From an uncultured Saprospiraceae bacterium (GTDB lineage Bacteria > Bacteroidota > Bacteroidia > Chitinophagales > Saprospiraceae), in NCBI GenBank assembly GCA_937959275.1, contig CALGLU010000033.1, positions 1 to 64,000 on the forward strand: a DNA stretch of 64,000 bases, given 5' to 3'. This document shows positions 50,390 to 62,909 of this stretch, piece by piece (the first letter of the stretch is position 1; each line of letters starts with the position of its first letter). The notes below the pieces were generated by a model that did no database searches, was not told the DNA's origin, and saw only the letters and a program-made list of their open reading frames with translations. The translations under genes were made by a program, and so were the position numbers.

Positions 50390-52075
50390 TCAAGAAATAG
50401 ATAGATCAAATTCAAACGGCGTATAACCCGTCAAATAAACACCCATCCCCTTCAACTTAGGTAACGCCCCTCTCAGCTGTGTCCAAGAATGACTAGCAGC
50501 TACAGGACTAAAGTGTATTGTATCCTTTCCCATAGTATATGTACCAGGACTCGTTAGCAGGTAACTGCCCTCTCCTAGATCCTTAACCCCAGTCAACTTG
50601 CCGCCTTCCCTAAAATTAAGCTCGATCGCTAATGGAACTCTGGGTGTCCCTGCAATGTCAAAGTGGATCTTGAAAGCTCCTCCTTGTTCGGTAATTGTGA
50701 TAACTGATCTTAAGCGCTGCACTTCACTTTGCACCCGACCACTTCTTGGCATTTTATTCCAGTCTCCATCAGGAGCAATATTCTCAGGTAGATGTGGCTG
50801 GTAATAAGGTCCCTCTAGTTCCTGTGTGAGAATGTATTTACCATTGTCAACGACAAGTTCTTCACTAACAAATTGCCCTTTGCCAAAAAATGCAGAAGCT
50901 AACCGAACTGCTTGCAGAGCAGCCTCTCCTTTAAAGAACGTAAAGAAGGAATAATTTTCTCCAAGGATAGAGGCATCGAGATTACCCCTTCTTATTCTCA
51001 CCAACTTAGAATGAGAGAAATTTTTCTCATAGTTTGTAGGCAGCTCATACTGTCTTGGAAGCACTGCTGATAAAGATGAAAGCTCCAAAAAATGAGAAAG
51101 AGTAAAACTCAGTTTTTCTAATCCAACATTCTCTTCGATAAACGTTGCCATGCCAGAAAACTGCTCATCATCATCCAGTTGAGCCATATACCGATACGCA
51201 AAATAAAATCTACTCAAGTCCTCTCTCTTGTATTGATCCTGACGAGTAGAAACCTCGGTTACAACTTCACCATTTGCATGAACGAAATACTTTATCATAT
51301 CTAGATTCTTCCGTACGGGATCATACAGCTGAGGTCTATCTAACAATCTCGCTATTGTAATAAAACAATCATCCACAAGAGGAGAATAGTGTATGCTCTT
51401 CTCCGTATACTGCCCATCAGGATCTATATCTATTCCTTCAGCTAACCATTGGTCAATCCTAGCAATATATTTTGAGTTGGGAAACAGAAAATTAATTCTC
51501 GCTAGTGCTCTGCAGACAACCCATCGGTGATTCGGTGTGTGTATCCCGCCTATCGTAAGCCCATCACCTGCCTTGAGTAAAAACTGCTTTGCTTTACGTT
51601 GAAAACCGACTAGCAGATCACTGGCTATTTTTCTATTTAATGTTAAAGCTACACTCACAGGCTCTACTGCAAAAGCGGTGTCGGGAGGCGAATTAAAATT
51701 AGTCGTCAATAGATCAATATTCCCTTGTTGATTTTGAACAGATAACAAGTAATCCATTGCTAAAGAAAGTACTACAGCAACACGTTCCGATTTAAAATAT
51801 ATTGAAGCTTTTGAAATATAAGATATGACCAATGACTTAGCATATCCAGCAGGGCTACTGTGATGGTAGATGTCATATTGATCTGGGAATCCACCATAGA
51901 AAGGGTGGTCTGTGTGGCTTTGTTGTCTCGACAGGATACGCTCTACAGCTTCATCATTCTGTTTAATAAATAATTGTAACTTTTCTTGTGCATGCTGATC
52001 ATCCTTACAGTTGATCAGTAAAGATGTTACCACTGGTGTACATACAAAGGAGTGTAAGAATTTGCGTCTACGCAT
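50390..52075 (-). CDS. Tat/lipoprotein-type exported protein, alpha/alpha-barrel (polysaccharide lyase-like)
   Basis: A 561-residue exported protein, not confidently assigned. It begins RRRKFLHSF (Tat-like RR) with a hydrophobic stretch and a lipobox (LLINC). The N-terminal ~340 residues are helical with hairpin-like repeats (DYLLSVQNQQGNID, NHRWVVCRALARINFLFP, DGQYTEKSIHYSPLVDD). The C-terminal part is beta-rich, an arrangement seen in heparinase II/III-like polysaccharide lyases and six-hairpin glycosidases. The Tyr-His pair SIHYSP is suggestive of a catalytic site. It faces the FAD oxidoreductase gene (convergent, ~150 bp). Low sequence recognition; the function is inferred from fold pattern. 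Confidence 0.5.
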   Translation of the reverse strand: MRRRKFLHSFVCTPVVTSLLINCKDDQHAQEKLQLFIKQNDEAVERILSRQQSHTDHPFYGGFPDQYDIYHHSSPAGYAKSLVISYISKASIYFKSERVAVVLSLAMDYLLSVQNQQGNIDLLTTNFNSPPDTAFAVEPVSVALTLNRKIASDLLVGFQRKAKQFLLKAGDGLTIGGIHTPNHRWVVCRALARINFLFPNSKYIARIDQWLAEGIDIDPDGQYTEKSIHYSPLVDDCFITIARLLDRPQLYDPVRKNLDMIKYFVHANGEVVTEVSTRQDQYKREDLSRFYFAYRYMAQLDDDEQFSGMATFIEENVGLEKLSFTLSHFLELSSLSAVLPRQYELPTNYEKNFSHSKLVRIRRGNLDASILGENYSFFTFFKGEAALQAVRLASAFFGKGQFVSEELVVDNGKYILTQELEGPYYQPHLPENIAPDGDWNKMPRSGRVQSEVQRLRSVITITEQGGAFKIHFDIAGTPRVPLAIELNFREGGKLTGVKDLGEGSYLLTSPGTYTMGKDTIHFSPVAASHSWTQLRGALPKLKGMGVYLTGYTPFEFDLSIS

Positions 52076-52376: not shown

Positions 52377-52450
52377 GGGCCTATAGCTCAGTTGGTTAGA
52401 GCATCTGACTCATAATCAGAGGGTCTGGGGTTCAAGTCCCTGTGGGCCCA
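52377..52450 (+). tRNA. tRNA with CAT anticodon (Met or Ile2)
   Basis: A 74-nt cloverleaf. Acceptor GGGCCTA pairs with TGGGCCC, the D arm is AGCTCAGTTGGTTAGAGC, and the anticodon stem-loop is TCTGA-CTCATAA-TCAGA with anticodon CAT at 52411-52413. The T arm is CTGGGGTTCAAGTCCCTG. CCA is not encoded. A CAT elongator could be tRNA-Met or the lysidine-modified tRNA-Ile2; the acceptor resembles tRNA-Ile but I cannot decide. It has its own promoter and terminator. Confidence 0.93.
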
Positions 52451-52455
52451 CTATA

Positions 52456-52497
52456 ACTGCCTCGTTATCAATAATTTATGGTAATGAGGCGGTTTTA
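52456..52497 (+). terminator. tRNA terminator
   Basis: A 14-bp stem with three wobble pairs (52456-52469 with 52480-52493; CTGCCTCGTTATC against GGTAATGAGGCGG), a 10-nt loop and a following TTTTA run. It begins 6 nt after the tRNA. Confidence 0.75.
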
Positions 52498-52582
52498 TTA
52501 TATCCTCAATTATTTATTTGATACACTTTTTGATACACCAAGAGAGAATTAAAGGCATGGGTATCACATAGTAAGCTTGGAG

Positions 52583-52598
52583 AATGATTTAAATCATT
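52583..52598. promoter_or_regulatory. FNR-type palindrome upstream of small membrane gene
   Basis: A perfect 16-bp palindrome, AATGAT-TTAA-ATCATT. The core TGAT-N4-ATCA equals the FNR/Crp-type half-site pair. It lies about 75 bp upstream of the ATG of the small membrane gene, the first gene of the stress island after the tRNA. It is the first of three such boxes in 3.5 kb. Confidence 0.5.
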
Positions 52599-52672
52599 AA
52601 TCACGCTAACACAGATCATTTATTTAATTGTTTCTTCCACTGATCTTTATAACATCAATAAAAAAAATAGTT

Positions 52673-52903
52673 ATGAACATCAAATTATTCAACGCCCGCT
52701 TCGATAAAATAATCATAAGATATTATCTAATGATGATAGTGATCATTGGAAGCTTTTACTTAGGAGCTCCTATTCTTGGTCTAATCGGTTTACCAATTTT
52801 CCTCTCCGCTATTTTGGGAATGGAATTTAAAAGCAAGAATAGAAAAGCCAAAGTACATTATCCCAATTTGGAGAAAAGCGATTTAGGAAGAATTGCGGCT
52901 TAG
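52673..52903 (+). CDS. Small membrane protein of the stress island
   Basis: A 76-residue protein (ATG at 52673) with two hydrophobic helices (YYLMMIVIIGSFYLGAPILG and LIGLPIFLSAILGM) and a basic, soluble tail. I do not recognise a family. It is on the plus strand, convergent with the regulator gene, which ends 1 bp away (52905). A perfect FNR-type palindrome lies upstream, so it probably belongs to the regulon. Confidence 0.6.
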   Translation: MNIKLFNARFDKIIIRYYLMMIVIIGSFYLGAPILGLIGLPIFLSAILGMEFKSKNRKAKVHYPNLEKSDLGRIAA

Positions 52904-52904
52904 A

Positions 52905-53969
52905 TCAACCAATAAGATTTTGAAGCTGATTTAAATTTTGAATCACCAAAGATTTGCCTTCAATTTTTATTAATCCTTCAGATTTAAAATCAGATAAAGT
53001 TCTTATCAATGTTTCTTTAGCTGTTCCAGCCATTGTAGCTAAATCATCTCTAGAAACATTTATTTCATAGTGGTCTTTGTTTTCATCCGAATTGTTACTA
53101 GTGGCGAACGTGCAAAGAGCGTTTGCCACTTTTTTACGTACTGAGCTGTAGGCGACGTCAATTAATTTCAATTCGATTTCTTCAGCTCTGTTTGCGATCA
53201 TCTTAATAAACTTTGCGGCGAAGTCTCTGTTATTATATAGCAATAAGAAAAAATCATCTTTAGGTATTAGTCTCAAAGTTGTATCATTGGTACATGCGGT
53301 ATTGTTTCCATAAGCAGTTTCCTTGATCAATGGGAAATAACCAAAAAATTCTCCTTGATTTATTAACTGTGTCGTTAACTCCTTTCCATATTCATTAATT
53401 TGATACTCCTTGACTTGACCTTCCACAACGTAATACAGCCACCTAGCCGTTTGGCCTTCTTCGTATATAATATCTTTTTGCGAAAATTGTCGAATCTCTT
53501 TATCTAAAGACAATTTTTCCAATTCTTTTTGAGCTCGAGCATCAGAAAAGAAGCGTTGTAAATTCTGATCTGAAGATTCTTCAAAAGAACTATTGATTCT
53601 CTCGGCTTTCTTTAGGCGCATTTCTATAGCCTCTAATAACTCAACATCATCAAATGGTTTTGAGATATAATCTTGAGCACCTAATCCCATTCCCTTTCTA
53701 AAATCACTCTTTTCGGCTTTAGCAGTTAAAAAGATAAAGGGTATATGATTCAGCTTGGCGGTCTTGTTCAATATTTTCAAAACTCCGAAACCATCTAATT
53801 CCGGCATCATCACATCGCATAATATAAGATCTGGTAAAACTTCATCGGCCTTTTTCAAACCAAGCTTTCCATTTTCTGCTGAGCTTACTTCATAACCAGA
53901 CAGTTCAAGAATTTCGCAAAGGTTTTCTCGAACTTCGAGATTATCTTCAATTACTAAGATTTTTTTCAT
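52905..53969 (-). CDS. Response regulator with REC, cNMP-binding and Crp HTH domains
   Basis: A 354-residue fusion. The REC domain (about 1-120) has the acidic pair Glu8-Asp9, phosphoacceptor Asp52 in LILCDVMMP, Thr82 and Lys104 in YISKPFD. A helical linker is followed by a cyclic nucleotide-binding fold (DIIYEEGQTARWLYYVVEGQVKEY, GEFFGYFPLI) and a Crp-type winged helix (VSRDDLATMAGTAKETLIRTLSDFKSEGLIKI). A phosphorylation signal is thus placed onto a Crp/FNR DNA-binding frame. Its start overlaps the histidine kinase stop by 23 bp, so it is the cognate pair. It probably recognises TGAT-N4-ATCA boxes nearby (inference). Confidence 0.93.
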   Translation of the reverse strand: MKKILVIEDNLEVRENLCEILELSGYEVSSAENGKLGLKKADEVLPDLILCDVMMPELDGFGVLKILNKTAKLNHIPFIFLTAKAEKSDFRKGMGLGAQDYISKPFDDVELLEAIEMRLKKAERINSSFEESSDQNLQRFFSDARAQKELEKLSLDKEIRQFSQKDIIYEEGQTARWLYYVVEGQVKEYQINEYGKELTTQLINQGEFFGYFPLIKETAYGNNTACTNDTTLRLIPKDDFFLLLYNNRDFAAKFIKMIANRAEEIELKLIDVAYSSVRKKVANALCTFATSNNSDENKDHYEINVSRDDLATMAGTAKETLIRTLSDFKSEGLIKIEGKSLVIQNLNQLQNLIG

Positions 53970-55602
53970 TTTTTCTGGGTATCGTTAATTTAAATGTAGT
54001 TCCCTTTGATTCTTCACTTTCGAATATTATTTCTCCCCCAATTAGCTCAACATATCGCTTTACAATATTTAATCCTAATCCGGTGCCTTGAATATTTTCA
54101 ACATTAGAAGCTCTAAAGAATCGACTGAATATGTGTTTCTGTTCTTCAGAAGGAATACCAATTCCAGCATCTTTAATTGCAATGGTCAATTGGTCATTGT
54201 CCAAAATAACATGACAATAAATAAGGCTATTTTCTGGGCTATATTTTATTGCATTAGAAATTAAATTGAATAGAACGTTTTTTAATATTCGCTTATCACT
54301 TTCAATAAAAATTTCGCCATCAGACATTTCATGAATCAAATTTTGACCATTTTTAAATAGCCCTTTCGTTTCATCATGAATTTCTTGACATAATACTTTA
54401 ATATCTATTTCTTCGAATTCTAATTTTTCTTTTCCTTCTTCAATTTTACTTAGTGATAAAAAGTCATTTAATATGCCTGTTAGATTGTTAACCGAAGACT
54501 TTATTCGATCTATGTGTTTTTGTCTTTTTTCATTTTGCTCAGCCTCAACATATCTGGAAATGAGAGAGGCTGAAGATAGTATTGTACTTAAAGGAGTTCT
54601 AAATTCATGTGAGGCCATCGAAACAAATCTTGATTTCAATTCATTCAGTTCAATTTCTTTGCTTAATGCTTCTTTTAATTGCAATTCACTTTGCTCCAAT
54701 TTAGTATTGGTAGATAACATGCGATTTACCGTTTCTTCCAGTTCGGAAGTTCTTTCTTCAACCTTTATTTCGAGCGCTTCATTTAATTGTGTTAGCTCAA
54801 CTTCGACTTGTTGAATTTTGGATATTTTTTCATTTAAATCTATTTCAGCAAGTTTAAGTTTGGTTACATCTTGAATTACGCCAACAAGGCTAATCACGTT
54901 TCCTTCCGTGTCGGTACGGACTTCTCTTTTCCCATGAATGTATTTTAGTTTATTGTTTTCAGTAATAATTCTAAAATTTATTTCTGCACCTTTTTGATTA
55001 TTCACAATCTGGTTGGTATCATCTATAACCATTTGTCGGTCATCTGGGTGTACATACTTTATTATGTCATCCAAATGAAGCTGACTTTTATCTTCTTCTA
55101 ATTCGAAAATTCGAAACATTTCTGAAGACCAACTGGCCTTACTTGATTTCCAATCAATTTCAAAATTACCTAGGTGAGCCATTTCCTGGGCTTCATCAAG
55201 TTTGGTTTTACTTTCACTTAATGCATTAAACATTCTTTTTTGATTGGTATCATCCGTGACATACCCCAATGCAAATAATTCATTATCAATTGTACTATAA
55301 CTTAAGCTAATAGCGACGGGAAATTTTGACCCATCCTTTTTGAGTCCATATAAATCTTGGTGAGCTCCCATTGCCCTGGGTCGAGGATTTTCTAAATAGT
55401 TATCTCTATGATGAACGTGTTGCTTTTTATATTTTTTTGGTAGGAGGTCTTCTATAAATAACTCAGCTAGTTCTTTTTCAGAGTATCCGAATAAGCTTGC
55501 CAAATATGGATTATGATGAACAATTTTCCCACTTCGATTTACGACAATGATGCCAACGTTGGCTTCATTAAAAATAGCACTAAGCATTTGATTGTAATCC
55601 AT
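53947..55602 (-). CDS. PAS-PAS sensor histidine kinase
   Basis: A 551-residue cytoplasmic kinase with no membrane helix. PAS 1 (about 8-120) reads FNEANVGIIVVNRSGKIVHHNPYLASLFGYSEKEL with a following GLKKDGSKFPVAISLS block. PAS 2 is at about 135-250. A coiled coil spans about 255-320 (LNEALEIKVEERTSELEE), then HisKA with phospho-His332 in SMASHEFRTPLS. The HATPase ends with NLISNAIKYSP, DAGIGIPSEEQ and GTGLGLNIVKRYV. The soluble architecture implies internal signals (redox, oxygen or energy). It is transcribed with the REC-Crp fusion at 52905, which it overlaps. Confidence 0.95.
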   Translation of the reverse strand: MDYNQMLSAIFNEANVGIIVVNRSGKIVHHNPYLASLFGYSEKELAELFIEDLLPKKYKKQHVHHRDNYLENPRPRAMGAHQDLYGLKKDGSKFPVAISLSYSTIDNELFALGYVTDDTNQKRMFNALSESKTKLDEAQEMAHLGNFEIDWKSSKASWSSEMFRIFELEEDKSQLHLDDIIKYVHPDDRQMVIDDTNQIVNNQKGAEINFRIITENNKLKYIHGKREVRTDTEGNVISLVGVIQDVTKLKLAEIDLNEKISKIQQVEVELTQLNEALEIKVEERTSELEETVNRMLSTNTKLEQSELQLKEALSKEIELNELKSRFVSMASHEFRTPLSTILSSASLISRYVEAEQNEKRQKHIDRIKSSVNNLTGILNDFLSLSKIEEGKEKLEFEEIDIKVLCQEIHDETKGLFKNGQNLIHEMSDGEIFIESDKRILKNVLFNLISNAIKYSPENSLIYCHVILDNDQLTIAIKDAGIGIPSEEQKHIFSRFFRASNVENIQGTGLGLNIVKRYVELIGGEIIFESEESKGTTFKLTIPRKNEKNLSN

Positions 55603-55656
55603 AAAGTTGAGCCTATCTGTAAGTACTAATATAAGACTTTCGTTTTCTAATAATTG

Positions 55657-55672
55657 GCTGATAACAATCAGC
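55657..55672. promoter_or_regulatory. FNR-type palindrome in the divergent promoter of the island
   Basis: Perfect 6-bp arms around a 4-bp spacer, GCTGAT-AACA-ATCAGC, core TGAT-N4-ATCA. It lies between the divergent kinase (minus, start 55602) and the small membrane gene (plus, 55753), so it could control both units, including autoregulation of the kinase/regulator pair. Confidence 0.5.
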
Positions 55673-55752
55673 TTTTGAAATAATGAAGATCATTTTAATC
55701 TCATTGCTAGTCCATGATCTTTGAACCAACAATCAATATAAAAATCATACAA

Positions 55753-56049
55753 ATGAAAATAACTGATTTAAAAAAATGGAACGCTGCAATTAATCTTGAA
55801 ACTAAGCTTTTCATGGCATTAGCTATTGGTATGATTCTATTCTACAATATTGCTTTTTCTTATGATGGTAACTTAGTAATCATTTCATTAGGGAGTCTTC
55901 TAGCCATCACTTTTTTGTTCAACATGTATTTATTTGCTCAAAAGAAATCATGGATAGTTATCCTACTTCAGTTTGCCATGATTTTTCTTTGTTGCTTTTC
56001 AATTCTACTTGGACTCGTTGAATTGGTCTTTTATTACTTGAGGCAATGA
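55753..56049 (+). CDS. Three-helix membrane protein of the stress island
   Basis: A 98-residue protein (ATG at 55753; an in-frame ATG at 55714 gives 13 more residues). It has three hydrophobic helices (FMALAIGMILFYNIAFSY, NLVIISLGSLLAITFLFNMYLF and WIVILLQFAMIFLCCFSILLGLVELVFYYL). No recognised family. It is divergent from the kinase gene and follows an FNR-type box. 75 bp separate it from the CBS gene. Confidence 0.6.
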   Translation: MKITDLKKWNAAINLETKLFMALAIGMILFYNIAFSYDGNLVIISLGSLLAITFLFNMYLFAQKKSWIVILLQFAMIFLCCFSILLGLVELVFYYLRQ

Positions 56050-56064
56050 ATGTCATAATGCTCA

Positions 56065-56078
56065 TTGATCTAAATCAT
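56065..56078. promoter_or_regulatory. FNR-type box upstream of the CBS/UspA operon
   Basis: TTGAT-CTAA-ATCAT is one base from the E. coli FNR consensus TTGAT-N4-ATCAA. It lies 46 bp upstream of the CBS-protein ATG. This is the third TGAT-N4-ATCA site in the island. Confidence 0.55.
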
Positions 56079-56124
56079 TTTATCGAAGCATCCTACCTCA
56101 TAAATTGCGACTAAATAACATAAT

Positions 56125-56559
56125 ATGAATCTATTATCACCAATAAGTAAAATAATGACTCCCAAAGTCATAACGGCTAAGCCGGAAGATTCACTACTTA
56201 ATGTGAATGCAATATTTAAAAAATATGGATTTCATCATTTACCAGTTATTGATGAAGGTGAAATTGTGGGAATGGTCAGTAAATCTGATTTACTCTTTTT
56301 TCAAAGAGGGTTTAATAATGGCGAAGACAAATTTGATGCCTATAGATTAAAGACATATAAAGTCAAGCAAATAATGACCAGAAAATTAGCAAAGCTAGAT
56401 CCAACGGATAAGATAAATGTAGCACTGGAAGTTTTCAAGAAAAATTTATTTCATGCACTTCCAATAGTTCAGAATAACAAACTCATTGGAATTGTCACCA
56501 CATACGATATTATTTCACACCTGGCCAACGATAAGGGAGCCACAAATAAATACGAATAA
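56125..56559 (+). CDS. Tandem CBS-domain protein
   Basis: A 144-residue soluble protein made of one CBS pair. CBS 1 reads ISKIMTPKVITAKPEDSLLNVNAIFKKYGFHHLPVIDEGEIVGMVSKSDLL and CBS 2 reads VKQIMTRKLAKLDPTDKINVALEVFKKNLFHALPIVQNNKLIGIVTTYDII. Bateman modules bind adenine nucleotides and sense energy state. It heads an operon with two UspA genes (gaps of 2 and 1 bp) and an AhpD-like gene, under a likely FNR-type box. Confidence 0.9.
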   Translation: MNLLSPISKIMTPKVITAKPEDSLLNVNAIFKKYGFHHLPVIDEGEIVGMVSKSDLLFFQRGFNNGEDKFDAYRLKTYKVKQIMTRKLAKLDPTDKINVALEVFKKNLFHALPIVQNNKLIGIVTTYDIISHLANDKGATNKYE

Positions 56560-56561
56560 AA

Positions 56562-57644
56562 ATGAAAACAATTAATATTTACGGCAAGCCTTCATACCCT
56601 TATGATTTCATTAAAAGTACTTTGAAGTCTTTAATCAAAGAAGCGAATTTACACCTTCGGTTAAATGAAATTCATGACATGGATCTTTTCATAAAAGATC
56701 AAATTGAGCATATTCCTGCAGTAAGGTATAATGGGGTAACAAAAATTTATAACGATTCAAATCTAAATCAATTTTCTACATCACTTAAGAAGTGGATACT
56801 TCAAAATGAAAACTTTGGGACGTTGGAAAACATTATGGTTCCAATTGATTATTCTTTATCATCGGAAAATGCTTTAGCGTATGCTAAAAGCTTGAGTGAA
56901 GAGAAAAAATATGTTGTTAATATATTCCACACATTTTTTCCATCACCATTAATGTTGAATAATCAAGTTTACATTGATGAAGGACAAGAATTGAGAGAAA
57001 GGGAGAAGTTTACAAAATATGTAGACTTTTTAAATAGTGAATGGATCGGGGAAAAAAGTAATGGAGGGATTCCATTTAAATCTCAATTTTCTGTGGGTTT
57101 TGCAAGTGATGAAATAATTTCTTTTTCAGAAGATTTGGAGGATGGATTTATTGTGATGGGAAGTAAGGGCGAATCAAACATTCAAAAAAGAATCTTTGGT
57201 TCCGTTTCCATCGACACGGCAAAAAAAGCAAAATGTCCAGTTCTAATTGTACCCGAAAAGGCAAGATATGCGGGCTTTAAAAATGTAATGTATTGTGGGA
57301 ATGATATAAGCTTAGACGGCAATAGTGTGCCAACATTAATGAACTTTTTCAAAGGACATGATACTAATATTCATTTAACTCATTTTGGCATTGACGATTA
57401 TGATCACGAATCACTACTTACGACGTGGAATGCATTTTATGATGAAAATAAAGTAAGCTATACGGCCAATCAAAATAAAATAACTAAGGATCGGATCAAA
57501 GACTTTTGCAAGAAGAACTCAATAGATTTAATTGTGCTTGCAAGACCGAAAAGAGGCGCTTTTGAAAGTTTTCTTCACAAGAGCTTTACTAAAGAAATGG
57601 CAATTTTTTCTGAGACACCATTATTAATATTAAACCAGCAATAA
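56562..57644 (+). CDS. Tandem universal stress protein with thioredoxin-like N-terminus
   Basis: 360 residues. Residues about 1-83 have a thioredoxin/glutaredoxin-like pattern (strand KTINIYGKPSYPYDF, helix, and HIPAVRYNG at the cis-Pro position) but no CxxC. Two UspA domains follow. The first (about 92-230) carries IMVPIDYS and the ATP-type motif MGSKGESNIQKRIFGSVS. The second (about 235-358) starts KNVMYCGNDIS and ends with the degenerate ARPKRGAFESFLHKSFTKEM. Acts in the cytosol in stress or dormancy (family inference). It sits 2 bp after the CBS gene and 1 bp before the next UspA gene. Confidence 0.82.
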   Translation: MKTINIYGKPSYPYDFIKSTLKSLIKEANLHLRLNEIHDMDLFIKDQIEHIPAVRYNGVTKIYNDSNLNQFSTSLKKWILQNENFGTLENIMVPIDYSLSSENALAYAKSLSEEKKYVVNIFHTFFPSPLMLNNQVYIDEGQELREREKFTKYVDFLNSEWIGEKSNGGIPFKSQFSVGFASDEIISFSEDLEDGFIVMGSKGESNIQKRIFGSVSIDTAKKAKCPVLIVPEKARYAGFKNVMYCGNDISLDGNSVPTLMNFFKGHDTNIHLTHFGIDDYDHESLLTTWNAFYDENKVSYTANQNKITKDRIKDFCKKNSIDLIVLARPKRGAFESFLHKSFTKEMAIFSETPLLILNQQ

Positions 57645-57645
57645 G

Positions 57646-58470
57646 ATGAAAAACATTCTGATTCCAATGGACTTCACAGAAGTCGCCAAAAATGCTTTAT
57701 CCTTCGGATTGCAATTATTTGAAGACGAAAGAATATTTATCCTTCATACATGCCATGGATCCTACTATAGTGATTCTATGTTTGATGAACCAAGACTCGA
57801 TAAGAAGAAAATTCTACAGCAAGAATTAACTAATGATGTTCTCAGGGTTTTAAATAAAAAAGTTCTGCCGGATAATATATCTATTGAAGTACTAAATGGT
57901 GATCCTGCCCCTGTAATTCAACAATATTGTAAAGACAAAAACATTCATAATATTGTTATGGGGACAAGAGATAAGTATTCGCAATTGGATAAATGGATTG
58001 GTACAATTTCTCTTTCTGTAATTAAAACAATAAATGTTCCCGTTTACTTAATACCGCCTTTCGCAAAGTACAAAAGCATAAAAAGTACGTTGGTAGCGAG
58101 TGATTATCATATTGGCAATAAAAAGCTAGTGCAATGGATTAAGGAATGGAATTTACCTCATCAATCTTTCATTCGATTCTTACATATTAGGAATACGAAA
58201 AAGCCAAATTTTGAAACTGAAAAGAAGAAAATTATTGATAGTTTTTTTGAAGATGATGACCCTACATTTGGTTTTGAAATTATTTCCAAAAACAACGAAG
58301 ATATTTCACAGTCCTTATTGGCATCAGCTTATAATTATGGTTCAGATTTAATAATAGCTATTCCGGAAAATCAAACGTTTATAAAATCTCTTCTTTTTAA
58401 AAGTGTATCGAAGGAATTGATAATGAAATCAGAAATCCCTCTGCTATTTATTAATAGTGAAACGGCCTAG
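57646..58470 (+). CDS. Tandem universal stress protein (UspA family)
   Basis: A 274-residue protein of two UspA domains. Domain 1 (about 1-140) begins KNILIPMDFTEVAKNALSFG and has a partly degenerate nucleotide loop (MGTRDKYSQLDKWIGTISLSV). Domain 2 (about 146-274) is divergent (STLVASDYHIG, IAIPENQTFIKSLLFKSVSKEL). It follows the preceding UspA gene by 1 bp and precedes the AhpD-like gene by 36 bp. Confidence 0.87.
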   Translation: MKNILIPMDFTEVAKNALSFGLQLFEDERIFILHTCHGSYYSDSMFDEPRLDKKKILQQELTNDVLRVLNKKVLPDNISIEVLNGDPAPVIQQYCKDKNIHNIVMGTRDKYSQLDKWIGTISLSVIKTINVPVYLIPPFAKYKSIKSTLVASDYHIGNKKLVQWIKEWNLPHQSFIRFLHIRNTKKPNFETEKKKIIDSFFEDDDPTFGFEIISKNNEDISQSLLASAYNYGSDLIIAIPENQTFIKSLLFKSVSKELIMKSEIPLLFINSETA

Positions 58471-58506
58471 TATTGAGAGAATTCATTAATTAACTAAAAA
58501 GACAAA

Positions 58507-58854
58507 ATGAAAGATTACCCTAATAAGTATAAAGAATGTGTTTCATTGATGGAACAATTGGGAGCAGAAATTCCAGAAACAATGCAGGCTTTTGGACAAC
58601 TACATATGGCTAGTATCACGGATCGTGCATTGAGCAAAAAAACGAAAGAATTAATTGCTTTAGGCATTGCCATTACTGTTCGATGCGACGGATGCATTGT
58701 GTATCATGTCCATGATGCCTTAGAGGCTGGTGCGGAGAAGAAGGAAATCGTTGAAACCATTGGAGTGGCCATAATGATGGGAGGAGGACCATCATTAGTT
58801 TATGGTTGTGAAGCTCTTGAAGCTCTTAAGCAATTTTCGATAATCCAAGATTAA
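58507..58854 (+). CDS. AhpD-like carboxymuconolactone decarboxylase family protein
   Basis: A 115-residue helical protein. The core motif CDGCIVYHVHDALEAG holds the CxxC pair and following histidine that characterise the AhpD-like (peroxidase-adaptor) branch rather than the true decarboxylases. KTKELIALGIAITVR precedes and GGGPSLVYGCEALEAL ends the conserved block. It probably acts as a thiol-disulfide or hydroperoxide-handling enzyme. It is last in the CBS-UspA-UspA operon and is followed by a strong terminator. Confidence 0.88.
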   Translation: MKDYPNKYKECVSLMEQLGAEIPETMQAFGQLHMASITDRALSKKTKELIALGIAITVRCDGCIVYHVHDALEAGAEKKEIVETIGVAIMMGGGPSLVYGCEALEALKQFSIIQD

Positions 58855-58925
58855 AATTTAATTCTGTTGGTTGTTTCCAGTTAGATATTTCAATTAGTGA
58901 TCAGTTGAAATCACCCTTATGGTTT

Positions 58926-58959
58926 ATGCCTAATTCACCAGTTGAGTTAGGCATTTTTT
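58926..58959 (+). terminator. Terminator of the stress operon
   Basis: A 12-bp stem with one wobble pair (ATGCCTAATTCA at 58926-58937, TGAGTTAGGCAT at 58943-58954), a 5-nt loop (CCAGT) and TTTTT. It ends the plus-strand operon 71 bp after its last stop. Confidence 0.9.
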
Positions 58960-59008
58960 CATAGATGGATTTTATGACAAACATCATGTCGATGCTTGAT
59001 TGGATATT

Positions 59009-59129
59009 CCGGTCAAAGTTGCCACCTAAACCGGTTCAAAGTTGCCACCTAAACCGGTTCAAAGTTTACCAGCAAAACCGGAACAAAGTTTACCACTCAA
59101 AACGGTTTAAAGTTTACCACTAAAAATGG
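59009..59129 (+). repeat. Left subterminal repeats of the IS21 element
   Basis: Five direct copies of a ~22-27 bp unit, CCGG(T/A)TCAAAGTT(G/T)(C/A)CCA.., at about 59009, 59031, 59054, 59078 and 59103. The two outermost have GTTGCCACC and the three inner have GTTTACCA. They are probable transposase (IstA) binding sites. Confidence 0.8.
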
Positions 59130-59220
59130 ATAAAATTGAGTCCTAAAAGTAGGACTAAATAAAAGAGTATAAAAAGCGTATTTCAAGTTTAAAAAATGTG
59201 GTCTTTTCGTGAAAAAGATC

Positions 59221-60765
59221 ATGTCAAATAAACCCATAGAAATGCGAAAAATAAAGAGGATATATAAGCTTGATATAGCGGGTGTGTCACACAGAAAAAT
59301 CAGTATTCAGTTAGGCGTATCGAGGCCTACAATTAAGAAATATCTAGAACAAATAAAGAAGTATGAATTAACGCTTGAAGAAGTAGAACTGATGAGTATC
59401 GAAGAATTAAGTCAGTTATTTGGACAAGCTAAAAAAGAGGATAGTAGAAAACTAAAAGTGCTAAAAAAGTACTTTCCTCACTTTGACAAAGAATTAAAAA
59501 AGACAGGAGTAACTAGAAAGTTATTGTGGGAAGAATATATCTCAAAACATCCTGATGGTCTGAAGCTATCCCAGTTTAGTTATTGGTATAATCAATGGTG
59601 TTTAGCCGTATCACCCGTCATGCATTTTAACCATAAAGCAGGTGATAAATTATTTATCGATTACACAGGTAAAAAATTACAAGTCATAGATCCGAGCACT
59701 GGAGAAGTAAAACAAGCAGTAGTAATATTATGTGTTTTAGGCTCTTCGCAAATGACTTATGTAGAAGCAACCTATACCCAGCGTAAAGAAGATTTTATAA
59801 AAAGTATAGAGAACGCTTTATGGTTTTTTAAAGGAGTGCCTAGAGCTTTAGTCACAGATAATTTAAAAGCAGCCGTAAAGAAATCAAGTAAATACGAACC
59901 CGTATTAAACGAGACTTTCTCTGATTTTGCAGACTATTATCAAACCACGGTATTACCCACTCGTGCCTATAAACCCAGAGATAAAGCCATCGTAGAAAAT
60001 GCCGTGAAAATTATATATACAAGAGTATTTGCAAAACTTAGAACACAAACTTTCCACACCTTAAAATCACTAAACAAAGCGATTCTAGAACATCTAGAAA
60101 AGCATAATAATATGTCCTTTAGAGGAAGGTCGTACTCTAGAAAAGACATCTATGAACAAACAGAACTAGAGAGCCTAAATTCACTACCACTAGAACGATA
60201 TGAAATAAAACATATCCAGATGGGAACGGTACATAAAAACAGTTATATCTATTTAAAAAGAGATAAACATTATTACAGTGTTCCATACCGATATATCTCT
60301 CAGAAGGCCCGTATTATCAGCTCCTCCACCGTGGTGCAGATCTATATAAAGCAAGAATATGTAGCCTCTCATATCAGAAATGAGCAAGCCTATGGTTACA
60401 GCACAAAGAGTGATCATATGCCCTCTCAACATCAATTTGTAAGCGAATGGAGTAGCAAAAAATTTATCGAATGGGCAGTGAGTATCGGCCCTTTTTGTAA
60501 AGAATATATAGAGAAAGTTCTAGACAATAAGCAGCATCCCGAGCAATCCTATAAGTCTTGTGCGGGTATCTTACATATGACTAAAAAAGTAGGCAAAGAT
60601 CGATTAGAATAAGCCTGCAAAAGAGCCTTAGAATATGACGCCTATAGCTATAGCATTTTAAGACGAATACTTGAAAAAGGATGGGAAGATCAAAACGATT
60701 CACCCCAACAAAACAATGAAATACCCCAACATCAAAACATAAGAGGAAATGATTATTATAAATAA
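59221..60765 (+). pseudogene. istA: istA, IS21 transposase, interrupted by an in-frame stop
   Basis: IS21-type DDE transposase with one in-frame TAA. An HTH (RKISIQLGVSRPTIKKYLEQI, about 30-50) is followed by the catalytic Asp in KLFIDYTGKKL, the second Asp in RALVTDNLKAAV and Glu in KPRDKAIVENAVKIIY. The frame stops with TAA at 60610-60612 (after ..KDRLE) but continues in the same frame with the normal IstA ending (ACKRALEYDAYSYSILRRILEKGWE) to TAA 60763. Fusing the two parts gives about 514 residues, the usual length. ATG 59221 is chosen; a GTG at 59209 is possible. A nonsense mutation or sequencing error are the two readings. Confidence 0.85.
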
Positions 60766-60777
60766 ATATCTAAACAA

Positions 60778-61509
60778 ATGAATACAGAAATCTTAAACCA
60801 AATGAAGCTCCTAAGACTACATGGAATGCATAGAGCCTTTACTCAGAGTCTAGAACCCGACAGTCAAAAGTATACCCCAGACGAACTCATAGAGTTCCTC
60901 ATACAGAGCGAATCTGACGATAGGCACAATAGAAGAATAGATCGACTTACGTCCAATGCAAAATTTAGATACACCGCATCTATAGAAGATATTCAATATG
61001 ATCAGACCAGAAATATTGATAAAAATATGATCTACAGATTAGCAGAATGTCAGTTTATAAAAGATGCAAAAAACATAATTATTACTGGATCAACAGGAGT
61101 AGGTAAATCCTATTTAGCCTCTGCCATAGGTTATCAAGCCTGTTCACTTGGTCATAAAGTAATGTACTATAATACCTATAAATTGTTCACAAAATTAAAG
61201 ATGTCTAAAGCAGATGGCACCTACTTAAAAGAAGTTAATAAAATTGCAAAACAAGACCTATTGATCCTTGATGACTTTGGATTAAAGACTTTAGATAACA
61301 ATGACAGACAGTATCTGATGGAAATAATAGAAGATCGTCATGGTAAAAAATCTACCATGATTGCCTCACAATTACCTATTGATAATTGGCATGAAATAAT
61401 CGCAGAAAACACCATCGCAGATGCTATTTTAGATCGCATCGTACACCATGCTTTTAGACTAAATTTACAAGGAGATTCCATGAGAAAAAAACGTAGAAAA
61501 AAATCTTAA
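60778..61509 (+). CDS. istB: istB, IS21 helper ATPase
   Basis: A 243-residue AAA+ ATPase that helps IS21 transposase select targets. Walker A ITGSTGVGKSYLASAI, Walker B LLILDDFGLK, the arginine-containing sensor ATMIASQLPIDNWHEII and the N-terminal LLRLHGMHRAF motif are typical of the IstB/DnaC-like family. It begins 12 bp after the end of the istA frame and appears intact. Confidence 0.95.
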   Translation: MNTEILNQMKLLRLHGMHRAFTQSLEPDSQKYTPDELIEFLIQSESDDRHNRRIDRLTSNAKFRYTASIEDIQYDQTRNIDKNMIYRLAECQFIKDAKNIIITGSTGVGKSYLASAIGYQACSLGHKVMYYNTYKLFTKLKMSKADGTYLKEVNKIAKQDLLILDDFGLKTLDNNDRQYLMEIIEDRHGKKSTMIASQLPIDNWHEIIAENTIADAILDRIVHHAFRLNLQGDSMRKKRRKKS

Positions 61510-61540
61510 ATTTAACCCATGAAAACAACGCTTTTTATAC

Positions 61541-61614
61541 CCATCCAAAGTGGTAAACTTTAAACCGGAATGACTGGTAAACTTTAAACCGTTTTCACTG
61601 GTAAACTTTGTCCG
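61541..61614 (-). repeat. Right subterminal repeats of the IS21 element
   Basis: Three inverted copies of the same unit (TGGTAAACTTTAAACCGG, CTGGTAAACTTTAAACCG, CTGGTAAACTTTGTCCG), complementary to the inner left copies, which lie in direct orientation. Fewer copies than at the left end. Confidence 0.8.
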
Positions 61615-61814
61615 TTTTTTCCAATTTGGCTATACCTTATTGCAAGATGGTTATAAGCTTTCTATTGATAAATAAGCAAAGGTCATATTCAAAGTATTCC
61701 TGTTTTAAATTAAAAAAATCGAGTGTTGTATACCATTATTTTTATCGGTCCTAAAAATCAGGATTAGTTCTTTTTACTTTTAATATTTTTAACCTACATA
61801 CTTGTAATAGAAAT

Positions 61815-62909
61815 ATGGATTCTTCTAGTAAAAATCAAAATACAAACAGGCTATCTATTTTAAAAAAGAGTGAGCGGTTAATGGGAGATAAACAGGTTTC
61901 TTTGTTTAGTCTATCTAACGATAATGGGATGATAGTGGAGATAACTAACTACGGAGGTATCATCACTAAAATTAAAGTCCCTAATAAAGACGGTAACATA
62001 GAAAATGTTGTTTTTGGTTATGATGACATCGATTCTTATTTAGAAAACAAAGCATATTTGGGGGCATTTATAGGCAGATATGCAAACCGTATCGCGTTTG
62101 GGAAATTTAAAATAGACGATAAACAATATACTCTAGAAAAAAATAATGGTCCACATGCTTTGCATGGAGGAACTTTTGGTTTTGATAAAAAAATATGGGA
62201 TGCTTCGACTTTTTCATTTACTGATTAAGTAGGTTTAATACTAGAAGCAATAAGCCCAGATGGAGAACAAGGATATCCCGGAAATTTAGAAGTAACAGTA
62301 AAGTATACACTTAGTAATAAGAACGAATTACTGATACAGTATTTTGCAAAGACAGATCGATCGACAATAGTAAACTTTACTAATCATTCTTATTTTAATT
62401 TAAAAGGGGCAGGTAAAGGCAGTATTTCAGATCATCACTTACAAATTAACGCGAGCCATTTTACACCTGTAAATGACTCTTTAATTCCAACGGGAGAGAT
62501 CAGATCAGTAGCGGATACTCCTTTTGATTTCAAAAAAAACCGATCGATCGGGAAACAGCTAAAGTATCTCTCTGATTTCAAAATGAAAAGCGTAAATGGT
62601 TATGATCATAATTTTGTATTAGATAGAGTAGGAGATGGCTTAGAGATCGCTGCAGTAGTGCATGAACCATCTACCGGTATACAATTAGAAGTATCGACGA
62701 CAGAGCCATCTATGCAACTGTATACTGCTAGTAATCCTAAGCTGAAAAATAAGGATAAAGAGGATTTAGTTCAAGATTCGATAGATGCTTTTTGTTTAGA
62801 GACTCAGCAGTTTCCAGATGCTCCTAATCATGCGCATTTTCCCAGTCCAATATTATTGCCAGGTGAGCAATTTAGATCAGAGACCTTATATAGGTTTTCT
62901 GTAAGGTAG
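61815..62909 (+). pseudogene. Aldose 1-epimerase (galactose mutarotase) interrupted by one stop
   Basis: A galactose mutarotase (GalM) family gene, which would interconvert alpha and beta anomers of hexoses. First part (to TAA 62226-62228, 137 residues): ITNYGGIITKIKVPNKDGNIENVVFGYD, then YANRIAFGKF and GPHALHGGTFGFDKKIW. The frame continues without shift from 62229: ISPDGEQGYPGNLEVTVKYTL, VNFTNHSYFNLKG, and the C-terminal NGYDHNFVLDRV..LCLETQQFPDAPN, all conserved family blocks. One nonsense codon in an otherwise complete ~364-residue gene. It lies 191 bp after the IS21 end. The stop may be a true lesion or a sequencing error. Confidence 0.9.

Follow-up and report, generated by a model that had tools for sequence, protein, structure and literature searches.

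The DNA considered here, a stretch of 64,000 nucleotides from an uncultured Saprospiraceae bacterium (assembly GCA_937959275.1, contig CALGLU010000033.1, positions 1 to 64,000; hereafter the window), carries a 6.5-kb island that encodes a soluble PAS-domain histidine kinase, a response regulator in which a receiver domain (REC) is joined to a cNMP-binding fold and a Crp-type helix-turn-helix (REC-Crp), two small membrane proteins, A and B, and an operon for a CBS protein, two universal stress proteins (Usp) and an AhpD-like protein. We put at roughly 0.7 the probability that this island belongs, as a single regulon unit, to a FixL-like two-component switch, whose activator would unite FixJ-like and FixK-like parts in a single protein. 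The proposal is built on a paired palindrome, the tandem operator, which recurs at a rigid spacing in other Bacteroidota genomes and loci (the relatives), accompanies the regulator among them, and is picked out at three promoters of the island by a matrix trained on those relatives. The genome to which the window belongs, called the own genome below, measures 6.79 Mb and is 97.6% complete.

It was in the relatives' loci that TGA-N6-TCA palindromes were seen to occur as pairs. Over 29 such loci (488,539 bp) there were 41 pairs 22 bp apart and 4 pairs 23 bp apart, with no other distance up to 100 bp found more than twice, and 20 shuffles of these loci gave a mean of 0.05 pairs at 22 or 23 bp. 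The same preference was present in 80 other loci taken across the phylum (920,804 bp), which held 42 pairs at 22 bp, 9 at 23 bp, and at most two at any other distance up to 60 bp. A strict form of the operator, TGAY-N4-RTCA-N10-TGAY-N4-RTCA, searched genome-wide while ignoring the regulator, was found at 114 places in 24 of 40 related genomes, and the control, the same pattern read backward, gave 0 in every genome. The centres of these 114 unique operators fall inside an open reading frame (ORF) longer than 100 aa in just 5 cases, and their median distance to the start codon is 79.5 bp. When the gap between the palindromes was left free (4-30), the 22-bp pairs still made up 17 of 19 in genome G018, 14 of 19 in G026, 13 of 18 in G012 and 8 of 13 in G016, together with 12 of 23 in G003 and 12 of 25 in G022, both of which, among the pairs listed, also use 23 bp; the control matches in these six genomes, in the same order, were 1, 1, 0, 0, 1 and 1.

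Some relatives carry more elaborate arrangements. In genome G018 (loci L027, L049 and L136) the exact tandem operator occurs 17 times; contig C5 carries 11 of these copies, all within 157-280 kb. Its REC-Crp copies lie on C5 (two, one with an internal stop) and on C31. In L049:2791-2846 three palindromes stand in a row at 22-bp steps (2791, 2813, 2835), possibly a triple operator, and genome G046 holds another row of three at the same steps.

The operator follows the regulator from genome to genome. Full-length REC-Crp relatives (best E < 1e-60) are present in 26 of the 40 related genomes, the nearest named records for the regulator being Saprospiraceae metagenome-assembled genomes, and the exact operator was found in 21 of these 26 genomes vs 3 of the 14 without the regulator. 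Across 296 Bacteroidota genomes, with a control count of 0, it is present in 28 of the 43 with a full-length REC-Crp vs 10 of the 253 without (Fisher odds 45); the 43 are 44 matches minus G313, whose match covers model positions 1-144, the REC domain, alone. Because operator and regulator both concentrate near the window lineage, the test was repeated within the range from its own family to its class, where the operator is present in 28/43 vs 4/30 genomes (odds 12, p 1.1e-5, shared ancestry weakening these p-values, including the within-lineage ones). By copies, 78 of the 93 exact operators in the 296 genomes fall in the 43 regulator genomes.

In the window itself the operators were sought with a 66-bp matrix made from 94 sites of the relatives, own genome left out, and applied to 127,870 window positions on both strands. 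The sites found, with their -7-like boxes, are:

52585..52618, plus strand: tandem operator, small membrane gene A, TGATTTAAATCA + TAACACAGATCA, 22 bp from start to start, score 27.8
52642-52649, plus strand: -7-like box of small gene A, GATCTTTA, 4/6 letters of TAnnTTTG
55659..55692, plus strand: tandem operator between the kinase and small gene B, TGATAACAATCA + TAATGAAGATCA, score 29.3
55716-55723, plus strand: -7-like box towards small gene B, GATCTTTG, 5/6 letters
56044..56077, plus strand: tandem operator of the CBS operon, CAATGAATGTCA (weak) + TGATCTAAATCA, score 20.7
56101-56108, plus strand: -7-like box of the CBS operon, TAAATTGC, 4/6 letters

These three promoters of the island are the top three scores of the whole window. 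Two of these operators, scored in reverse, come next, and the highest score unrelated to them is 10.0; 100 shuffles never gave a best score above 20.0 or a third best above 14.1. The case for the window operators lies in the combined geometry and in the training on relatives. Read towards the kinase, on the other strand, the 55659-55692 operator is weaker (14.9), which makes autoregulation in the own genome no more than a possibility. Allowing up to 3 mismatches, the composite pattern occurs at 14 places in the own genome vs 3 for the control; three of these are in the island, and another precedes the gene for a second copy of small protein A, a paralogue. Two of the three Usp matches of the own genome lie in the island. 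The exact operator that the own genome carries on its contig C17 was set aside, being inside a 1470-aa ORF and probably due to chance.

Promoter elements in Bacteroidota differ from the sigma-70 type, and the relatives' sites reproduce the Bacteroidota -7 box at a fixed distance from the pair. The profile was made with targets 40-130 bp from the pair centre only (96 of 158). After alignment on the pair and orientation towards the gene, the single-target sites (n = 38) have T at +57 (0.87), A at +58 (0.82), and then T, T, T and G from +61 to +64 (0.92, 0.97, 0.68 and 0.53), which is the box TAnnTTTG, repeated in a second set (n = 21); no -33 element is visible in this profile. In Flavobacterium psychrophilum the -7 box is located at -12 to -5, according to PMC9723704. 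With the box fixed at +57 and so placed, the palindrome centres come to -63.5 and -41.5. Since -41.5 is the textbook class II position of Crp/Fnr activators, the regulator would take the place of the -33 element and recruit RNA polymerase.

The first-pass annotation had described the island from the letters of the window alone, and its genes, overlap, gaps and terminator all check out by sequence and Pfam:

52377-52451: tRNA-Met
52673..52903, plus strand: small membrane protein A (ATG 52673, 76 aa), 2 hydrophobic segments
52905..53969, minus strand: REC-cNMP-HTH_Crp response regulator (Pfam), proposed activator; D52 invariant in a 28-sequence alignment
53947..55602, minus strand: soluble PAS-PAS-HisKA-HATPase histidine kinase (Pfam PAS + PAS_3 + HisKA + HATPase_c)
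55753..56049, plus strand: small membrane protein B (ATG 55753, 98 aa), 3 hydrophobic segments
56125..56559, plus strand: protein of two CBS domains (Pfam)
56562..57644, plus strand: thioredoxin-fold domain (residues 1-83, no CxxC) + tandem Usp (Pfam Usp; model and structure matches)
57646..58470, plus strand: second Usp protein (Pfam Usp)
58507..58854, plus strand: AhpD-like CMD protein with CxxC (CDGC), Pfam CMD PF02627 and TIGR00778 over cut-off
58926..58960, plus strand: intrinsic terminator, hairpin at about 58926-58954 and then a T-run (RNA folding)

The 23-bp overlap between kinase and regulator genes was reproduced, the gaps within the CBS-UspA-UspA-AhpD operon are 2, 1 and 36 bp (Pfam CBS, Usp for both middle genes, CMD), and the terminator that had been called strong folds at -19.4 kcal/mol (z -4.2). 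A simple hydropathy scan agrees with a soluble kinase, giving no membrane segment in it or in the regulator, and with the two small membrane proteins, for which no Pfam family was matched and whose better starts sit downstream of the predicted -7 boxes. The regulator is, as annotated, of the REC-cNMP-Crp kind (Pfam Response_reg + cNMP_binding + HTH_Crp_2), the kinase has its two PAS domains (PAS and PAS_3), the last protein of the operon is AhpD-like by its CMD domain with CxxC, and the universal stress proteins qualify by Pfam Usp over cut-off together with the tandem Usp fold.

Beyond the island itself, an IS21-like element (59009-61620), flanked by inverted arrays of 24-bp repeats and comprising an integrase-core protein and an IstB-like ATPase, lies directly after it. 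At 61815-62909 an aldose 1-epimerase is split between two ORFs, one matching the beginning of the family and the other its end; the gene is probably broken, or the assembly is in error. A 561-aa protein starting MRRRKFLHSF, with no Pfam match at E 0.01, is encoded at 50390-52075.

That these genes should co-occur in other Bacteroidota genomes had been named as the check on the annotated module, and for Usp and CBS they do. Two sets of loci were used, one of 28 loci (5.8 to 19.9 kb; genes assigned by BLAST to window proteins) and one of 77 loci out of 80 fetched by name (up to 13 kb). The PAS kinase adjoins the regulator in 25/28 loci of the first set, and an adjacent kinase is present in 67/77 of the second; Usp genes are found in 17/28 and 37/77, CBS genes in 11/28 and 10/77, and relatives of small protein A in 5/28 and 1/77. 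By these counts in both sets, the recurring core is kinase, regulator and Usp, less often CBS, and AhpD is an occasional member. Small protein A belongs to a small conserved family, whose genes in relatives lie close to the regulator or behind the operator. On comparative grounds the module is real.

The first Usp protein has an additional domain that had escaped the earlier annotation, an N-terminal thioredoxin-type fold over residues 1-83 (window 56562-56813). In its model, which was built on 6 sequences with a mean predicted local distance difference test (pLDDT) score of 74.4, this domain matches fold-switched KaiB (Z 10.8 over 78 residues), the SasA N-domain (10.6) and thioredoxins (10.4 and 10.3) in what amounts to a tie, and it has no thioredoxin/glutaredoxin CxxC, there being no Cys at the active-site position. 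The tandem Usp part matches 3loq (Z 21.7), UspE (Z 20.2) and Rv2623 (Z 20.2). Proteins similar to the N-terminal part recur near the regulator in relatives.

The genes beside the operator in relatives indicate what the switch may control. We kept 150 of 158 target genes (those under 60 aa and duplicates were dropped, and divergent operators count both neighbours), and among these 150 first genes beside the 114 operators, 19 encode Usp proteins, vs an expectation of 0.24 (from 306 Usp matches over about 189 Mb, taking one gene per kb). The others include HisKA proteins (9), CBS proteins (5), E1-E2 ATPases (4), radical SAM proteins (3), of which the one at L047:1639-3057 is presumably HemN-like, and COX1 (2), FixO (2) and the NiFe hydrogenase small subunit (2); the cation-transport ATPase metal-binding domain was matched by 3 target proteins. 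Thirty chosen targets scanned singly yielded FixS/CcoS (3, each under 60 aa and hence outside the 150), Hsp20 (2), a bacterial globin (1), a nos_propeller protein, two molybdopterin oxidoreductases, a POR-type oxidoreductase and an FtsH-like protease, as well as the two hydrogenase small subunits already counted above, 3 of the 30 having no Pfam family at E 1e-5. An NCBIfam tally of the targets returned mostly generic kinase models and little information. Taken together, the operator genes of the relatives look like an oxygen-limitation regulon with additions.

The haem-binding residue of FixL and DOS is a proximal His in helix F, and the distal Arg of FixL contacts bound O2. The first PAS domain of the window kinase (PAS1, residues about 14-119) is of FixL/DOS type with His62 in the FixL/DOS ligand column; among solved structures its best sequence matches are FG214 (10jx), FixL and EcDOS, and its model (pLDDT 95.4) has the FixL haem PAS as best fold match, with LOV domains lower in the list. 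A His occupies the proximal column in a PAS of 26/26 kinases, the window included, and, in the second set, in 56 of the 59 kinases where such a PAS could be detected; His62 is also among the seven residues invariant in 41 related PAS domains, these having been picked by a FixL/DOS-seeded profile. Because the His is conserved and both fold and sequence match haem PAS domains best, haem binding by the kinase PAS is likely, and O2 is the likely PAS ligand in relatives and a possible one in the own genome.

The regulator has PF00027 (cNMP-binding fold) and PF13545 (HTH_Crp) over cut-off, and is thus a Crp/Fnr protein by its domains, with REC at its N-terminus and no FNR-type N-terminal Cys cluster; the only invariant Cys of 28 regulators is C51, beside D52. 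The residues of CRP that contact cAMP fall in the regions that here read GxFFGY and YxxSA, and in the consensus of the 28 sequences no conserved Arg is found there. Its output domain is not the LuxR/GerE-type helix-turn-helix that would make it a FixJ, nor does the pair correspond to DosR/DosS, a LuxR-type regulator with a GAF-haem kinase, the output here being Crp-type and the kinase a PAS kinase.

From these elements we propose the following mechanism. The soluble kinase would bind haem through His62 of PAS1 and become active when a gas ligand, most likely O2, is scarce; it would then phosphorylate the REC domain of the regulator, as domains and synteny suggest. Two phosphorylated regulator dimers would sit side by side on the two palindromes, whose centres, 22 bp apart, are separated by about two helical turns; pairing, spacing and co-occurrence with the regulator are observed, and binding by two dimers is our interpretation of them. 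From -63.5 and -41.5, a geometry observed in the profiles, the bound regulator would presumably activate transcription. Its targets in the own genome would be the genes of small membrane proteins A and B together with the CBS-Usp-Usp-AhpD operon; in relatives, the cbb3 oxidase with its maturation genes, hydrogenase, globin, HemN-like and Hsp20 genes stand behind the same operators. To judge from their families, the Usp and CBS proteins may act as adenine-nucleotide-responsive survival proteins.

Several observations weigh against this proposal or qualify it. AhpD, in 2/28 loci of the first set and 0/77 of the second, is not part of the core, and small protein B has no clear relative in the fetched loci, where the only hits were the protein itself and a short stretch at E 0.026; with these two qualifications, the earlier idea of one signal-response module is supported, by the synteny of the Usp and CBS genes and by island promoters with an operator that tracks the regulator. 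The 22/23-bp pair is present in 29 of the 80 named loci. The window operators are imperfect, with 1, 1 and 2 mismatches in the TGA/TCA letters and -7 boxes that match 4, 5 and 4 of 6 letters, and a search of the window for the bare pair, allowing 2 mismatches at most, showed no excess (9 vs 7.3 by chance), so bare motif counts were not used as evidence. The third Usp match of the own genome has no operator in its fetched flank. The low-oxygen role assigned by the first-pass annotation gains from the FixL/DOS-type PAS and from the operator targets in relatives, and loses from the own genome, where a profile search gave no match to CcoO (PF02433) or CcoS (PF03597), so that here the switch seems reduced to the island plus a few genes elsewhere. 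Some targets in relatives have no obvious oxygen link either (AsnA, the formate-THF ligase FTHFS, and kelch/sorting-domain secreted proteins). The distal Arg is kept in 20/26 kinases and the window kinase has Gln in its place; in the second set His and Arg occur together in 31/59, and 8 of 67 kinases gave no FixL/DOS-type PAS.

These observations feed three other explanations, of which the most serious, though we think it clearly less probable than oxygen sensing, is that the kinase responds to another signal (NO, CO, haem redox state or a non-haem ligand), with the island serving as a general response to redox stress or starvation. The Gln in place of the distal Arg and the missing CcoO/CcoS matches speak for it, the presence of AhpD and CBS genes hints at stress of a redox or energy kind, and the PAS_3 domain could carry a signal of its own; it has to contend with the invariance of His62 within the profile-selected PAS set, with the haem-binding PAS 10jx (FG214), which lacks the FixL Arg and shows a similar H..HR..Y..PR.R.MG pattern, and with the several oxygen-limitation genes among the relatives' targets. 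We consider it unlikely that the palindromes are the sites of another Crp/Fnr protein lacking REC, with the REC-Crp protein merely nearby. A TGA half-site is common to members of the Crp/Fnr family, 10 of the 253 genomes without a full-length REC-Crp have the operator, and 15 of the 43 with one have no exact copy; against this stand the 78 of 93 operator copies in regulator genomes and the odds of 45, or 12 from own family to class. Operators precede the kinase or regulator gene in 15/28 and 16/77 loci, which argues against a separate protein, even if those fractions are lower than our proposal would favour, and so strict a spacing of 22 bp suggests a protein that makes additional contacts, for example through REC. 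Least of all do we credit a chance cluster of stress genes under no common control: Usp genes are common and the bare pair is not enriched, but this explanation is largely refuted by the matrix, whose three highest scores among 127,870 positions all fall on island promoters, far above the next unrelated score. The recurrence of Usp and CBS near the kinase/regulator pair also speaks against it.

We therefore keep to the FixL-like switch with a REC-Crp activator as the reading of the island, and extend it with rather less assurance, at slightly better than even odds: REC-Crp activators fed by FixL-type haem kinases may be a main oxygen switch in a large part of the Bacteroidota, reading a 22-bp (in some, 23-bp) palindrome pair at -63.5/-41.5 plus a -7 box by means of two dimers that touch through their REC domains. 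For named genera such as Spirosoma, Hymenobacter, Dyadobacter and Pontibacter this supplies a candidate regulator together with its precisely defined operator and the genes that it may target. A receiver domain may here be forcing Crp-type dimers to bind in pairs at a fixed spacing, and the tandem operator gives a simple genome-search rule for the regulon. In a search of the open-access literature we found no description of such a REC-Crp/FixL system or of the composite promoter, nor any paper that names a regulator for the response of these Bacteroidota to low oxygen. A study of F. psychrophilum reports a rise of the cbb3 oxidase on oxygen limitation (PMC9723704), and another paper treats a Saprospiraceae Crp/Fnr homologue as MalR-like, the word receiver being absent from its main text (PMC8510549).

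Among known systems, DosR is of the REC-LuxR type and DosS uses GAF haem domains, as opposed to the PAS kinase and Crp-type output found here. The likeness that had been drawn to the DosR set with a different regulator architecture holds as one of content, the machinery being nearer to FixL plus FixK: the mycobacterial DosR hypoxia regulon includes Usp and alpha-crystallin genes, according to PMC6127331. The same paper describes a low-oxygen-activated locus of Burkholderia cenocepacia with six Usp genes, for which a Crp-family Anr/FixK-like regulator is suggested; there, in a proteobacterium, the Crp-family regulator stands alone and FixLJ is a separate pair. The Myxococcus xanthus NmpRSTU system (PMC11841059) also relies on a haem-dependent kinase, and its regulon includes cbb3 oxidase and HemN; universal stress proteins are named in the text. 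It works as a multi-step relay with a protoglobin sensor and an NtrC-like regulator. The closest likeness is to FixL-FixJ-FixK, with which the switch of the island would share the haem-PAS kinase, the phosphorylation of a REC domain and the Crp/Fnr-type DNA binding, cbb3 targets being present in relatives. In that system FixJ (REC-LuxR) drives a separate FixK, whereas here REC and the Crp-type output are fused in one protein, so that the switch fits neither FixJ nor FixK as defined; it differs further by its rigid tandem operator, by a window kinase without the distal Arg, and by a local output of Usp and CBS proteins.

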